From Ephemerocybe angulata (lineage: Eukaryota; Basidiomycota; Agaricomycetes; Agaricales; Psathyrellaceae), in assembly GCA_013368325.1 (NCBI GenBank), contig JAACJK010000114.1, positions 496,001 through 560,000 on the forward strand: 64,000 bases of DNA, read 5' to 3'. A program made the position numbers and the translations under genes. The notes under the pieces are model-generated. The model made no database searches, was not told where the DNA came from, and saw nothing but the letters and a program-made list of their open reading frames with translations. Below, in pieces: positions 11,943 through 56,180 of the stretch (position 1 is the stretch's first letter; every line of letters begins with the position of its first letter).

Positions 11943-13250
11943 TTGAACATGTTATGTCAAAATTGAGTTGAGTGACGGCATGGGTAAGATAAGTGTGAGC
12001 GAGACGCCACCAAGCGACTCTCATGAGCTTGGGAAATGCGACTTGCTGGGGAGCTTTGACCGAGAGGCACGCGACCTAGCTCGGCTGAACAATTCGCGAC
12101 AGAATTGAATTTATTACATACCTGTGTGGGCGCACGCTTCGCGCGCGCCGGAACTTTACTTTAGCCAAGCCCACCCCAGTCTTCATCTCGCGAAATGGGG
12201 CTTCTTTACATTTGTAGCAGAGTAGGGACGGCGGGTATGGCGTACGTAGGTCTCCCTAGCTGGTGGATAGCCAGGCTGAACCCGCGGACCGGACTTAGGG
12301 TAAGCTCAGTGAGCTTACCCTAAGTCCGCCTAACCCAGACCTAACCCTTAGGCATGCTGTATTGTCTGGAATAGCGTATAAATAGACTCAATGCCAAGCG
12401 AAAATGCTTCAATTGAATAGAACAGACTGCGACCCGAATTTTGACTCGGTGCCCGGATGAATTTAACAAACATCATATTACTTCAACCCCGGGGTCCCCA
12501 GGACTCATACTCCAGAGTTCTGAGCACATTACGGAGGCAACAGCATTAAGGATGCATTCAGGACCTCAATATCAATATACCGAGACTATAGCTATGCTGG
12601 TAAATTAGCGCACGCTGAAATACGCACAGTGGTAGGACTTGTGCAACCCAAATTTCGAGGAATTCGGCCCTTCCAGATTGACGCTGTAACCCACGACATC
12701 TTCGCATCTGCTAGTATTATGGTAGACTTAATTTGCGTACGTTATCGGGGAAAATCGAAAGCGACCGAAGTTCGTTCGGTTTCTCGAGCAAAGTCATAAC
12801 TGACGGAGCCTGGCGCGCTGAACGCATTGAAATACCGACATATACGCGTTCCTCTGACCTCATGATGAACTGTAAATGAGGTCATATCTGGGGTAGGATG
12901 AAACCTATGAAATTCTGATAAAATATTGAGCTTTCGAGTCGAGATCCGGGAGGATCCGGGTCGCGATTCAGCGCGAAACAAAAATAAGCGCCCAAGATAA
13001 GATAAGCGCTTTGGCAAAGTATGCAGATTTCCCTCACAAATCGGGCTTCAAACGATGTTCAACTAAATATCAATTACAGTACTACATTAAGAAGTATGCT
13101 CAGGGCACCTCCCTCGCCATATTTCGAGAGCCCGACGTCCCAGAGATTGGAATGGGTCTGGCGTCTGCTCCCGCCAATTACCATCCCACACCACAAGCCC
13201 TTCCCAGCATGCGATACGTTTGATCTCCTTGGCACTTACGTGCACACAAT
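11943..13250 (+). repeat. Dispersed ~1.3-kb repeat, copy 1 (uninterrupted)
   Basis: The sequence aligns in the same orientation, with divergence, to two blocks further right: 11943-12780 with 48173-49000 (starting GTTGAACAT, with shared TGTCAAAATTGAGTTGAGTG and TTGATTACATACCTGTGTGG-like stretches) and ~12785-13250 with ~55770-56180 (shared AATAAGCGCCCAAGATAAGA and AGTA.TA..ATGAA.TAT.CTCAGGG). Copy 1 is contiguous where copy 2 is split by the transposon. It contains a strong palindrome (separate entry). There is no convincing ORF; a minus-strand 91-codon frame at 12742-13017 shares LSYLGRLFLF with one at 55758-55988, which reflects the repeat itself. The type of element is unknown; it may be a non-autonomous transposon. 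Confidence 0.75.
12290..12328. repeat. Perfect 18-bp palindrome with TTAGGG in the arm
   Basis: Arms 12290-12307 and 12311-12328 (CGGACTTAGGGTAAGCTC and its exact complement) are separated by 3 nt. The same palindrome with a 2-nt loop is at 48547-48584 in repeat copy 2. Conservation of both arms while the flanks diverge suggests functional or structural constraint, for example as part of a mobile element. Confidence 0.85.
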
Positions 13251-48546: not shown

Positions 48547-48584
48547 CGGACTTAGGGTAAGCTCAGGAGCTTACCCTAAGTCCG
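48547..48584. repeat. Perfect 18-bp palindrome, second copy
   Basis: Arms 48547-48564 and 48567-48584, identical in sequence to those at 12290-12328 with a 2-nt rather than 3-nt loop. Confidence 0.85.
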
Positions 48585-48999: not shown

Positions 49000-49007
49000 G
49001 CGGAAAG
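49000..49007 (+). repeat. Target-site duplication, left
   Basis: GCGGAAAG, identical to 55767-55774 on the other side of the transposon. Confidence 0.9.
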
Positions 49008-49027
49008 CAAGGGTGGTCCGGACTTTA
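49008..49027 (+). repeat. Left terminal inverted repeat
   Basis: Begins CAAGGGTGGTCCGGAC; differs from the right repeat at positions 8, 10 and 16 of 20. Confidence 0.88.
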
Positions 49028-49408
49028 AATTACCGACCGGACCCTAGTTAGTTAGTCCAGCCGTCAGGCTGGAAAAAATTTGTCCGACCCCCATCTCTAA
49101 ATCACTCAGAATGGCTCCAAATGGCCTCAAACAAGCACAGAAAGGTTACCTGAGAGTTTCCAGTATTCACAGTACATGTAGATATCCTATAATCCAAGGT
49201 AGAACTGGTAATAACTTCTAACGAGCACCGACATTGATACCCGTACGCATAGATATGGCTCAGGTCAGGTTCAAGAGATGCCGTGTTCGAGCCCCAGCGA
49301 TAGCACTGATTTTCTTTTTCAGGTTTTTCATCAGCCAGGGTTGGTCGGAGACATCAGGCTCGGCTTCCTCGTTGTCTCTGATCACTCCCAGACAGCAACA
49401 TTTTTACA

Positions 49409-52400
49409 ATGGCCCCCAAGAAAGTCAAGCAAACATACGACGTAGATCCCAAGGTATGTGTCAACATGTTACATCTCTAGCTATGCGAGAATGAGAATCA
49501 TGACTAAATATACACAGAGTATCATTTACGATGATGAAGATAAAGCCATCTGTCCACTCTGTGGCAAAGCCGTCAATTTGGGAAGAGTGGGCCTGTCCAT
49601 CCTAACGAAAGTTCACATGGGTAGTAAGGAATGCGACGATATCATCAAGGCAAAGGCAGAGAAGGAAAAGGAGGAACAGAAAAAAAAGGATAGGCTTGCG
49701 AAGATGAAGAGTTGGTTCTCGGCGCCGAAGAAGAAAGCACCAGTCCCCACCACCGCAACAGCCCCGACCGTCATATACACACAGCCCGTGTCACCTATCA
49801 TCCCTGCCAACACTCCTCCACCGACGGAACATGTCAATGCGCCAGCACCGCAAGCTCCCATGTCGACCGGAATACAACCAACGGCACTCCCGTCTGCCTG
49901 GGATGAGCTCCGAAACATATCCAATCGTCTCTCTGCTCCAGCCTTCGGTACCCGCAGCAGCGACTTTCTTTCCGAATTCGACACGGATCCGGGCAGTTGC
50001 GACAACCCGGAGCTTTCGGCGGACGAGTTGTGGGAGGAACAGCTGAACACGTTCCTACATCGAGCATTCCGATGGGGAGAAGAGATTGAACGAGCTTGGA
50101 TTGAGGGGCTGAGACCGGAGAGACTGGAGGGGCTCTTGGCTTTCCTTGAATATTACGTCCATGGGAGGGGACTGGCTTGGGCCCTCTTCGAGCCCCGTGT
50201 CGAACGATTGCTGGGAGTGTTAAATAGATGGTGAGTGTTCCAGAATGGTTAGAAAAACACACACACTCACCTTGGATGCATCATTGCAGGGGAAATATAT
50301 CTCCTTTACCTACACCAACGAATCGCACATTGTCGAACAACCCTGCGCATGCACCACACACGCCGCCCGTACCGCACACACTGCCCAAAGAGTCGACGCC
50401 GGCTGCCGCCACCGACGACGAACTCGAGATATTGCCTGGCCCCGCGCTACGGATGAACGAGTCAGGGAAGCGCCATCGATGCACAGGATACAAGCTTACC
50501 TTCCCCGAAGGTGTTTCCCCCCATTCTGGATACCCATTCGCAATTCATGACACTCTGAACACGCCTTGGGAGTACCACGTTAATAACGGCAAGATGGCAC
50601 TGTTCGCGAGGAACTGTGAGCGCGACTATGCCGTGAAGGGTGGTGCATGTCGTCTGTGTGCTGCGCTTGAGCGGAATAACGTGCTACAAGGTATCCTTAA
50701 GCGCATGGAGGAGGGGATAAAGGAGGGGACGACGTACTCGTACTACGGAATCGGAGGGCTGCACGAACTCCTTCGATTGAAGAACCGACAAATCGAACAC
50801 TACCGGCTTTCTTCACTTAACCAGGGTCGGAAGCTGGCAAGGAAAGCGACTGCATTGGGCGACCATCGGCGTTTTCTCGTAGCCGTCGCAAGTGGGAAGG
50901 TTGAGCGGGTCGATCGTATCATCCGACTGGGACTACGACATGGGCGAGGTATCCGGGGCCTTCTGAGCGAGCATCTCCGAGCGGCTAAAGGGCTGTATCG
51001 GCCCAAGGACTACCAGGAGGAGGAATATATGAAGGGTTTAGTGCTGTGGAAGCTTGGAGGGAATCGCATCGCGAGTATCGCTCACCGGGCGCTCGGCCTT
51101 CCCTCAATCACAACCCTCAGAAACCAGGTCCGCATCCCCCCTATCAAACTTTCTCCACGCCAGCCCACGGTCCAAGAGGTGTCGAAGAATGTCGAAATGT
51201 CGTTTGACGGGATGGAGGATGTCCTGAAGCCCCCCACCGGTGCCCGTAACAATCACGTCGTCCTCATGTTCGACGAAATCGCGACCGAGAAGTGACTGCG
51301 ATGGGACTCAGATACCAATCTGGTAGTTGGTCTTTGTCGTGAGCATGCCGATAAAGCACCGCTGGAGTTGAACACGAAGGAGGACATCGAGCAGGTATAC
51401 TACGCAGTGGACAAGGGGAAGGCTCATTACGCGGGCGAGGTAAGCCACGGAAGCAAATTTGATTCCGTTTGACGGAAGCTCACACGCCCCTATCTAGGCT
51501 ACGATCGCCGCGGTGGGCATGTTGACCGATGATGATCAGAAATATAGTGCCCGTGGTGTCCTCGTCTCTGGGGATTGCAAGAAGGAGAGTGGCGAAGAAC
51601 ATGCGAAGGTCATACAGACGGTCCTCGATGGGGTGAACGAACAGAGCGCGAAAACGAAAGCGCGGGTTGTCAGTATTGCTTCAGACGGTGAATCTCGTCG
51701 TGGTGCTGCCCTGGCCATCCTCACCTTCAAAAAAAAGCTCTCGCCAGATTCACCCATTCACTCGATGCTTTCGTCGCTTCCATTTATGAATCTCCACGTC
51801 GGCGAAGATGATATCACCGCAGATAAAGACTGGAAGCACGTTATCAAGCGTCTCCGTAACTTACTCCTACGCGAAAAAGGAATAGTTGTGGGCGGTACAC
51901 GCATTACCCCATCGATTATCAAGGCACACCTCATCGAAAACGGCGTTGGGCTTGACCATATCCGTGCAATACTCAATCCGGAGGATAAGCAGGATGTCAG
52001 GCTCGCGTTCAATCTCCTCAAAGCGATCTGGACCTTACCTCAGTCGGTCACCAAAAAGAACCCAAGCTTCGTGCAGGCACGCTCTGCTCTCTGGACATTC
52101 GGCCAGTTCTTATACCACACCACGTTCCCCTACCTATGCACCGACCTCTCCCTGTCCGAACAGCTCGAGCACATGAGTGCGGCCTCCCATCTCGCCATGT
52201 TTCTGTATCGCACGGATGGGAAGGAATGTTTGCCCACCCTCCTATATACGGACATCATGATTATGCTGAAGAACGCGTACTTCTGTGTAGCGAAGACGAA
52301 AACCGACAACCCGGATGGCTCGTTCTGGATTGTACTCCTTGGTACCGACAGACTGGAGGAGCTCTTTGGAATGCTGCGGACTATGGTTGGGAACGATGCC

Positions 52401-55400
52401 AACCTCGATATTCTTCAAACTTCGTGGCGCTTAAGTGGCACGGCGGAGGTGGCCAATATCCTCGCCCGATTTCCCCACTGGGATCGTCCACCACGCCGAC
52501 TCAATGTCCCGCCCATTTCGCGAGATGCGGAGCCCCTCACAGCCGCATCCGACCACCTAAAGCCCAGAGCATGGGATGTCAGCAAGACGAAGGTCAAGAA
52601 TGTCACACTACAGACCTGTTGGGCAATCGGACGGCAGCGCATCGAGAAGAATATCCCGGGTGCAACGGAGGTGTTTGAGAAAATGGAGACGACGAGCTCG
52701 GCAGAATCCCCCATTGATATGCTCTCGCCTCATGGGAAGCTTCTTGTGGATGCCCATGCCCCGTGCGGCTCGGAGTCGGAAGCTGAAGGAGACGACGACG
52801 AGGGGAACAGTGGTGGTGCACCTGATTCCGCACCAAGGGAGGAGCTCGCAGATGATAATGAAGCAGCTCGTGTGGAGGTTGAGGATGCAATTGCAGAAGA
52901 CTGCGAAGCTGAAGAACGTGCGAAGGGAGGTGGTGGAGCGTCGTTCGGAAGGACAATCGATGTAGGAGGGAAGCCCGTTATGAAATCTCGCGCTCTCGCG
53001 GCGTACGGCAGGTACCGTACGTATGCCACCTCGTTTGACCGCCTGAAGCGAGTCCGCCATGCCGAGCGCTATACGCCGAAGGAGGATCTATCGTCGTCGA
53101 TGCAATGCGAAGTCGACGAGGAATCTGAATCCACCAAGTCGGTCTTCGTGCAGGATCCCATTGCTACGATCTTATGGAGTGATGATCGACCTTGGCTCTG
53201 CGTGGGCGAGATCATTGGGATTAAAGTAGATGGGAGGCCGGTCGACGAGATTCCGCATGAGTTCTTAGGAGAGGAGAGTGTACGCATTGCCTATCAGATG
53301 ATGGGTCTGCGGCCAGCGACGTTACTGGAAGATAAGACAGGAAGGAACGACTGGCGAACGTACGGCATACCAGAGACTTCGTTTACTGTGCCAGGAGGTC
53401 TCGTTGAGAGCATCGATCCCGATGTCGGCTTCTTGCCGTCCCAGCCTTCGAAGATCTTCTACCTTCTTGATAGCGCGTTCCTCGTCGCCCTTTCAGCTGG
53501 GCTGCTCGCGCGCCTATCCCTCGCTGATCTCAAACAGGCCCCCAAGGCCGCCCCAACTCCTTTTTTCCCTTACAAGGAAGCGTCAGGTACGTGTCCGCTT
53601 CGTAGTACAGAATTATTACTCACCTGCTGTCCAGGAAAGTCATGTTTCCTCTGCGAGGACGACCGCCCACTCACAGGACTCGGTGGCGCGAATACAATCG
53701 AGTGCGAGTATTGCGAGCCCTCGCCGACGCTTGATATTTCCCAAAGTCAGCGCGTTCTCGAGCATATGGCTGCCCACATGCTATACGACCCAAAGATCAA
53801 GGCAACGGACGAACCTTGCGGACTATGCCTTCGTCCGTCTCCCTTATGTGTATTCCATCTTAGAAAAGGGAAGGGGGCCAATGCTAGCCTGACCATCGAC
53901 AAGAAAAAATCAACCTGCAAGTACAACATCAACTTCTACTATCACGTTGCGGCGGCTTCGACGAGAACATCCCCTTGCTCCAACGTACCAGTACTGTGTC
54001 CCATATGCCCAAAAAGCTCGCCCGCCGTCTGGAAGTACAACATGAAGGCGCACTTCGCTCGAAAACATCCCAATCACCTCACAAAGTCGGAGTACACTGA
54101 GCTATGGGACGTCAGTAACTTCGAAAGGCGCGAGATGAAGGAGGTTTGGAAAAAGCGACATACCGTTTCTGTGCGCCGTCGCACTACCGCCCCACTCACA
54201 GTTTCCGATGATCACAAGTCTAGCAATGTCTCGATGTGAGCCTTCCCTCTTGTGATCATGTTCAAACTATGTACTTACCACCAGGGATACTCGGCGCTGC
54301 CACAGCCCTTCAGAAACACAGCCGAGACCGGCGGTTCATTCGGGGCCCATCATGGACGAAAGCACGGACTCGGAGGAAGCAGAGGAATCCGAAGTCGAGT
54401 CGGCGCACAGCTCCAAATCTGGGGAGTCCGTTTCGCTAGAGGAGGAGATGGAGGATGGAGGTTTCTGGGAGACTCCAGATCACAACGCCGCCGAGGCTGA
54501 CATCGATCGTTCCCTCGGTCACACGAGTTTGACACCCAGCGCCGGGGCCAGCGGAATTGATGAGTTTACTTCAGAATTGGGGAACGTAGATATGGAGATG
54601 GGGTCTCCGAGTCGAAGTGAACTTAGCGAAGCACAGTGCGTAATTATCCTTTTCAATCACTGGATTCATGTACTTATTGATATTCGCAAGACCGCCGCTC
54701 AAGATTCGCATTCGGCGTGTAGCACAGGCCAGCACGCTGGTCTCTGCTACCCCTACAGTTCATTCAGAGCCCGAAGCTCCTGTTTCAGGTGTTTCGGGTG
54801 TGCTTAGCAGTGCCGATGTGCCGCAGGCCCAGGAGTGTCCGAGTAATCAGGAGAAAGCTGTACCAGCAACCGACGAAGAGAAGGAACCCGGTGAAGGAAC
54901 GGAAGTCGAGGGTACTGGGCGCAGATCTACCCGAAAGCGCAAGCGCAACTTACACAACGCATGGGGCCAGTGCGTCTGCGGGTTCGCCGCTGAGCCCGAA
55001 GCAGCAGAATCTATCAAGTGCAGCAGTAAAGGTTGCGAGTCCCTTTGGGTGAGTCACGAGCTCTAGGAATAAAGTAAAGGTGCTTAACAAACATTTTTAG
55101 TATCATGCCTGCTACCGTAAGGTAGTGGGTCTTAGGGCGCCCTATCCCAGATTTTGGCGTGGATTTGGGGAAATGCGGTGCGATCGGACTCCGGTCTTCA
55201 GATTAGTCTCCAAAGGTAGCTCGCGAGTCATCATGTACAACTTTGACTCGTCTTGCGTCAGATTTCGAGAGGGTATATACCCTGCTGTACTGAGGGTACA
55301 TACCCTGTGTATTGTTGGTCTGTATGTGCCTTGCATAGAAGGTGCACACCCTGTGTATTGTTGGTCCGTATGTGCCTTGCATAGAAGGTGCACACCCTGT

Positions 55401-55472
55401 GTTCACGCTCCGAAGCCAGGGAATATAAGCCCCATCCTGATCTTTCATTTTTCATTGCCATCTACTCTCTAA
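49409..55472 (+). CDS. P-element/THAP9-like transposase with extra C-terminal zinc fingers; one in-frame TGA
   Basis: Exons 49409-49453, 49518-50230, 50290-51439, 51498-53586, 53635-54235, 54285-54635, 54691-55048 and 55101-~55472 join in frame; the last border is uncertain. Start MAPKKVKQTYDVDPK. An N-terminal BED-like finger (CPLCGKAVNLGR..H-x5-C) is followed by a basic, Pro-rich linker. The RNase-H-like core has VVLMFDEIA, WDSDTNLVVGLC, VVSIASDGESRRGA, and DKDWKHVIKRLRNLLL, matching the order of D-E-M, second Asp and DxxHxxKxxRNxL motifs of P/THAP9 transposases. LGTDRLEELFGMLRTM and a large alpha-helical region follow. C-terminal additions are Cys pairs (CFLCEDD, CEYCEP, CGLC), a C2H2-like finger (CPICPKSS..H-x4-H), an acidic linker and a PHD-like CVCGF..CSSKGC..YHACY. 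A TGA at 51293-51295, between ATEK and LRWDS, interrupts the catalytic core; the flanking frame is open, so the lesion looks recent. Confidence 0.85.
55303..55404 (+). repeat. 46-bp tandem repeat inside the transposon's 3' end
   Basis: Unit CCCTGTGTATTGTTGGTCYG..TGCATAGAAGGTGCACA starts at 55303, 55349 and (partial) 55395. The frame of the transposase runs through it without a stop but the encoded peptide is Cys/Val/His-rich and unlike the rest, so the true stop may be earlier. Confidence 0.85.
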
Positions 55473-55746
55473 ACTGGCTTCAACCCGTATTATAAGGTGT
55501 CGGTACAAGGGGGGGATAAGGTTAGGTAGCAGGTTGTGCCGCTAGTCGGCCTTACAGATGTTATCTGACATGCATAGGCCTCGAGAGGCAGCCAAAAAGC
55601 CGCTGGTCGTGCGATTCCTGCTCTGCCTCAAATAAGCGCTCGAGGATTTGATAGAATTACCATATTTGGAAATACCCCTGATTACGTAGTTACTTAGTCC
55701 AGCCGCCAACTCTCAATCCAGATTTTCCGACCCCAGGTCTGTTCGA

Positions 55747-55766
55747 TAAAATCCGGCCTACCCTTG
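55747..55766 (-). repeat. Right terminal inverted repeat
   Basis: Complement reads CAAGGGTAGGCCGGAT at its outer end. Confidence 0.88.
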
Positions 55767-56180
55767 GCGGAAAGTTGGCACAACTGACGCACCGAATGGA
55801 CTCGCAATGCCAGCATTCGCAACATCACGTTGGGGTGTAGTCAAAGTTTTTCCTAGGATAGGGTGATGTATACGGATTCCATAAATAATTGAGCCTTTGA
55901 GAGGGGATCCTCGTGGCGATCCAGCGCAAAACAGAAATAAGCGCCCAAGATAAGATAAGCATGGTTGCGAGGGACCCACACCCTCCAAGAATTTATCTTT
56001 GGTAAAAACGAAATTACGTATCGTTCAAGTTTACAGCAGTATATTATGAAATATCCTCAGGGTGTCATATTTTGAGAGCCCAATGTTCGAATGAGTCAGG
56101 CGCCTACCCTCGTGTCAGCCACTATCACACACCCAACTCTCTCCAGCGCCGCCTTGTACTGTTTTATAACATCACGTGGA
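55767..56180 (+). repeat. Dispersed ~1.3-kb repeat, copy 2, right part
   Basis: Opens with the duplicated GCGGAAAG and continues TTGGCACAACTGACG, then aligns with ~12792-13250 (shared AATAAGCGCCCAAGATAAGA at 12983 and 55937; CTCAGGG and TATTT.GAGAGCCC further on). Confidence 0.75.

Follow-up and report, generated by a model that had tools for sequence, protein, structure and literature searches.

Which kind of transposon occupies positions 49008–55766 (+ strand) of a 64-kb stretch of Ephemerocybe angulata DNA (contig C98:496001–560000; the window, whose numbering is used throughout), and what sets its long protein apart? An earlier note had described a large P-element-like transposon with extra zinc fingers, inserted into a repeat whose other copy in the window lacks it. 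Among animal DNA transposons, the P element is the classic example. The element examined here very probably belongs to the P superfamily of cut-and-paste transposons, and its length of 6,759 bp agrees with the large size claimed. It is a full-length but broken member of a recently active family, and the novelty of that family lies mainly in its C-terminal PHD module.

Limits of the element and its relatives in the genome

The element is bounded by terminal inverted repeats (TIRs), CAAGGGTGGTCCGGACTTTA at 49008–49027 (+) and CAAGGGTAGGCCGGATTTTA at 55747–55766 (−), which are alike at 17 of 20 bases as first described. A perfect 8-bp target-site duplication, GCGGAAAG, flanks it at 49000–49007 and 55767–55774 (no strand assigned), again as had been claimed. 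A pattern covering both TIRs, derived from those same two ends, matched twice in the window against a mean of 0.06 in 100 shuffles. The interrupted repeat, put at 1.3 kb in the earlier note, does exist but is diverged: BLAST matched 546 bp of its left part to 11970–12484 (74% identity) and just 56 bp of its right part to 12952–13007 (89%), with patchy homology between the matched parts. By sequence comparison, the repeat is old and diverged. The related empty site in the paralogous repeat was nevertheless located, by BLAST of the repeat and by alignment of the joined flanks, at 12778–12805 (+). With one duplication kept, the joined window flanks aligned to it over 31 columns with 24 matches, 4 mismatches, and one 3-base gap; the score of 34 was the best among 564 window tiles (next best 26) and was reached by none of 2,000 shuffles. 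Despite the divergence of the repeat, the alignment thus leaves the insertion junction recognizable in the uninterrupted paralogue. Searches of the genome (58.7 Mb, 232 contigs) returned no copy of the left flank beyond the window itself, and for the right flank only itself and the window's own paralogue, although diverged copies could escape such searches. The repeat also carries a palindrome, CGGACTTAGGGTAAGCTC..GAGCTTACCCTAAGTCCG, with perfect 18-base arms at 48547–48584 and a counterpart at 12290–12328, retained in both old repeat copies better than its surroundings.

The 14-base end motif CAAGGGTNGNCCGG gave 49 matches genome-wide, versus 3 for the reversed control; 10 of the 49 lie outside the copies that were followed. 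Pairing of neighboring ends delimited 13 elements, each with all 8 duplication bases matching, whereas two pairs spanning two neighboring elements, taken from the output of the same script, matched at 2/8 and 1/8 bases. Twelve further elements with 8/8 duplications comprised two long elements and ten miniature inverted-repeat transposable elements (MITEs), the latter delimited through similarity to a MITE. Elements delimited by their ends alone, the window element included, therefore all carried a perfect 8-bp duplication (25/25), and these duplications are mutually different in sequence. They range from MITEs of 286–441 bp through longer elements to the two of 21.7 kb (C67:764512–786205) and 33.2 kb (C107:17854–51052), which have family ends and were presumably enlarged by nested insertions. 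Ten loci were also scanned with a duplication criterion (at least 6/8 duplication bases and at least 11/20 TIR bases); L051, L052, and L055 yielded no pair, and the 8 additional elements all had perfect duplications (8/8), in a set biased by that criterion. Besides the window element, 32 elements thus combine CAAGGG ends with a perfect 8-bp duplication (24 by ends alone, 8 by the duplication criterion). The 300-bp flanks of 20 elements showed no mutual similarity at an expect value (E) of 1e-3, so homology stops at the TIRs and does not run past the ends in the way that would have counted against the earlier note's delimitation. Its expectation of many copies with the same ends was borne out as far as CAAGGG, which is common to the copies; beyond it the ends vary by subfamily.

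Contig C47 carries two coding copies of 6,205 bp whose sequences are 100% identical; their starts lie 17.2 kb apart, and the two differ in both duplication and flanks. Three 419-bp MITEs spread across two contigs are also 100% identical. Identical copies with different duplications indicate that relatives of the window element moved recently in this genome. A 4,811-bp copy seems, from 96.2% identity over 3,866 bp, to derive from a 6,225-bp copy by internal deletion. Copies also appeared to cluster on one contig. The window copy shares ~69% identity with its nearest relative over 2.1 kb and is broken, since its spliced model contains an in-frame stop (TGA, 51293–51295, +) directly after the first catalytic motif. 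Because relatives moved recently and MITEs and coding copies share ends, the family lends itself to activity tests and might one day serve as a genetic tool.

A predicted P-type core in the transposase

Homologs of the transposase numbered 517, of which 120 were listed and 31 aligned (gene models of 945–1,583 residues). Judged by genus, the organisms named among the 120 are agaricomycetes throughout, with more than 20 agaricomycete genera represented among those listed. Most of these proteins carry the name "hypothetical protein"; a zinc finger appears in two of the names, in one case specified as PHD-type. The alignment revealed the D, D, E core together with the [C/D](2)H motif by which PMC8230255 defines the P RNase H core. 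Both residues of D(2)H, the K and N, and the last E were found in 31/31 homologs, the first D in 28/31, and the second D in 29/31. The second D lies 48 residues from D(2)H in all 30 homologs that could be measured, the two first acidic residues are 78–128 apart, and D(2)H is followed by the last E after 152–182; the corresponding fly spacings, calculated from residue numbers in the same source, are 36, 73, and 192.

The predicted structure of a homolog contains the RNase H core that the earlier note had made a condition of its reading, and it was closest to Drosophila P transposase (6p5a, 6pe2). The modeled match covers fly residues 114–566, that is, the core plus the insertion domain, and the prediction reproduces the overall P-type fold, in which the insertion domain separates strand 5 from helix 4. 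RAG1/RAG2 and Transib were the next best structural matches to the model. Perfect 8-bp duplications (25/25 by ends alone and 8/8 by the duplication criterion) accord with the P superfamily as well. Together, the shared ends, the 8-bp duplications, homology limited to the element, and the P-like fold of the homolog upheld the superfamily proposed in the earlier note.

Several observations weigh against this assignment. The fold was predicted on a homolog and not on the window protein. The TNP-like RNase H domain PF21787 matched 20/31 homologs at E up to 1 (best 2.4e-4) and 14 places in the genome, against none in 14 control genomes, but, where scores are given, below its curated cut-off (genome best 23.4 versus 24.6 bits; 14–17 bits elsewhere). 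A Pfam scan of four window reading frames returned no P or hAT match; other P-type Pfam domains were absent from the scan of the 31 homologs, and no THAP match appeared in either scan. Neither the window protein nor the profile of the 31 homologs matched any PDB sequence, P transposases included; the P-like identity was settled through structure comparison. The absence of any sequence match above curated cut-offs would also suit a new superfamily, sister to P, as would the differing N- and C-terminal domains and the longer protein. This is improbable: the core parts follow the order published for P, the fold match spans both core and insertion domain, and the D(2)H motif and the last Glu are separated by a similar stretch (152–182 residues here, 192 in the fly from residue numbers in PMC8230255).

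A divergent hAT transposon would share the 8-bp duplications and short TIRs, and the CAAGGG ends also fit YARNG, the hAT end consensus. We consider it very unlikely. The hAT C-terminal dimerization domain was not found by Pfam in the window frames or the homologs, although a positive control was detected, and the fold ranking speaks against hAT, whose fold lies much further away than that of P. The KDZ group (Zisupton and others) likewise makes 8-bp duplications (PMC12730594); no KDZ transposase domain was among the families listed in the Pfam scan of the 31 homologs.

The P assignment places the family beside Drosophila P, with which it shares 8-bp duplications, the D(2)H motif, internally deleted derivatives, and an RNase H core into which a helical insertion domain is set ahead of the last Glu. 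Unlike fly P, its coding copies measure 6–7 kb rather than 2.9, its ends start CAAGGG, a C2HC finger takes the place of the THAP finger, which was not found, and the protein has a long C-terminal extension with a PHD finger. The window model (~1,800 codons) is more than twice the size of the 87-kDa fly protein (size from PMC7776569). The family also differs from animal THAP-type P elements, no THAP domain being detected in the four window frames or the 31 homologs. Fungi reportedly lack THAP (PMC7776569) while P elements are reported in rusts (PMC3164196), so THAP does not define the superfamily. The latter report described P elements with 8-bp duplications in Puccinia striiformis and Melampsora larici-populina in 2011, as previously unknown in any Dikarya; P elements in Basidiomycota are therefore not new. 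Compared by description, the rust elements (P-1_PSt, P-1_MLP, P-2_MLP, P-N1_MLP, and P-N2_MLP) resemble this family in belonging to Basidiomycota, in their 8-bp duplications, and in having autonomous and non-autonomous forms, and differ in their hosts, rusts there and an agaricomycete here. In a limited literature search, with Repbase outside its scope, this was the one earlier report of fungal P elements, no P elements were described in Agaricomycetes, and no PHD finger was described in a P transposase. An agaricomycete P lineage with one long gene, a C2HC finger replacing THAP, and a C-terminal ING-like PHD finger is apparently unreported.

The terminal domains and the PHD finger

The extra zinc fingers of the earlier note were recovered as an N-terminal C2HC finger and a C-terminal ING-like PHD finger. 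The former shows C2HC spacing in the homologs, a BED-like arrangement. The C-terminal part comprises a beta domain, at best SH3-like, a region rich in Cys and His, and a PHD finger encoded on both sides of an intron. The ING-type match rests on the one finger tested, that of protein P0017, for which all 20 matches below E 0.02 were ING, YNG, PNG, or PHO23 proteins (best 4.8e-8). Among nine coding copies examined, at least the second half of the finger was recognizable in 9/9 (E 7e-11 to 4e-4, in a small search space) and the first half in 7/9, among the matches printed. Transposase DNA was present at 15 loci: these nine, five others, and a sixth, C47y, identical to C47x.

On these matches, the PHD finger may read histone H3 tails. 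More broadly, the transposase of a P branch in Agaricomycetes may have acquired a chromatin-reading module, made up of the SH3-like beta domain, the Cys-rich region, and the ING-like PHD, by fusion; the module would steer insertion via H3 tails, as an independent parallel of the RAG2 PHD; we advance this tentatively, at somewhat less than an even chance. The finger might instead be a cross-brace finger that binds DNA at the transposon ends and no histone reader, an alternative to be taken seriously though on the doubtful side. The Pfam PHD scores are below the curated cut-off (17.3 and 17.6 versus 24 bits). In a single alignment of P0017 to ING3, the Tyr and Met of the ING cage are not conserved, and since the cage Tyr is not kept, H3K4me3 specificity is not predicted. 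The piggyBac transposase provides a precedent for such end binding, its Cys-rich domain having a PHD-like fold that binds its own ends (PMC8086355). Against end binding, the sequence matches of the one finger tested are histone readers (20/20 below E 0.02), and the zinc His is preceded by the conserved Trp in P0017 as well as in 6/7 first halves from the genome copies.

A histone-reading finger would have a known counterpart in RAG2, whose PHD finger binds H3K4me3 (PMC8355894). That finger sits on a separate protein, whereas here it is ING-like and located at the end of the transposase itself. Rehavkus transposases also have a PHD or PHD-like finger but belong to another superfamily with 9-bp duplications (PMC6446971), and piggyBac, with its PHD-like finger, is of another superfamily as well (PMC8086355). 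If a P-type transposase does carry its own PHD finger, the site choice of such elements becomes directly testable.

Gene model, subterminal repeats, and a proposed mechanism

The transposase gene covers most of the window element and was modeled as one gene of about eight exons and about 1,800 codons (5,399 coding bases, the exon ends being approximate), all on the + strand. Exon 1 (49409–49453) contains the start codon, and the spliced model begins MAPKKVKQTYDVDPK. Exon 2 (49518–50230) encodes the N-terminal finger, CPLCGK..H..C, with the pattern found in homologs, and a linker. Exon 3 (50290–51439) encodes a helical region and the start of the RNase H core, with the first catalytic Asp in FDEIATEK. 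Exon 4 (51498–53586) contributes SDGE, DKDxKHxxKxxRN, the insertion domain, GTDRLEELFG, an acidic linker, and the C-terminal beta domain (52956–53582), followed by the Cys/His-rich region in exon 5 (53635–54235). The remaining boundaries are approximate: exon 6 (54285–54635) encodes an acidic linker, exon 7 (54692–55048) a linker and the first half of the ING-like PHD finger, and the last exon (55559–55651) the second half and the stop. This second half (55562–55633) is a weak match (E 4e-4), with Tyr replacing the expected zinc-ligand His. Tandem repeats of 23 and 46 bp occupy 55269–55402, between the two PHD halves.

Left–right alignment of the element identified a direct repeat inward of the TIRs, a candidate transposase-binding site, with a left block at 49045–49091 (+) and a right block in the same orientation at 55687–55734 (+), 32–80 bases from the right end. 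The two blocks scored 36 in direct alignment versus a maximum of 22 in 200 shuffles. The family core, about TGGGTGGTTGGTCGG, lies ~37–52 bases from the left end and 65–80 from the right. The repeat beat the best of 200 shuffles in 12/13 elements, by one point in 5 of them, and failed in one (C117_1751); the 13 are related and so not independent. In fly P, too, the transposase sites are unequally spaced, 9 and 21 bp from the TIRs (PMC7776569), whereas the sites of this family are direct repeats ~15 and 43 bp inward of 22-bp TIRs. Among the duplications at 33 insertion sites, a first-position G and an eighth-position C were in excess (30/66 versus 0.264; single-test P 6.6e-4, chosen among ~14 symmetric positions inspected), and C at −3 was as frequent. 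Overall palindromicity of the duplications was not significant (p 0.088). The G1/C8 excess resembles the fly target motif.

A mechanism can be proposed beyond what is shown, namely the ends with their duplications, conserved motifs, a P-like fold in the predicted structure, and relatives that moved recently; its biochemical steps, trans-mobilization, and the PHD role are inferred. The C2HC finger and helical region would bind the element ends, possibly at the direct subterminal repeats, which are unequally spaced from the left and right ends. Excision would be the work of the RNase H core (D, D, E, with the helical insertion domain before the last Glu), which would also join the element at target positions 8 bp apart, giving the 8-bp duplications. 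MITEs and internally deleted copies, non-autonomous and with the same ends, could be mobilized in trans. Through its beta domain, Cys-rich region, and ING-like PHD, the transposase may anchor the complex on H3 tails and bias insertion; chromatin guidance of this kind is plausible.

Some further copies were noted. At L057 (1201–7872), one family member begins 16 bp inside another's end, and the duplication of the inner insertion, GGCCGGAC, is part of the outer element's terminal sequence. Two elements on contig C231 (8.4 and 6.5 kb) were rejected as autonomous copies: no family transposase was found in them, their ends are MITE sequence, and a scan of a reading frame in one of the two identified it as a hAT. 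Two family MITEs of the 431-bp type (L041 513–8918 and L042 925–7412) are each split by a large insertion, that in L041 holding a hAT dimerization domain. Protein P0002 is 92–100% identical to L039, the element on contig C22.
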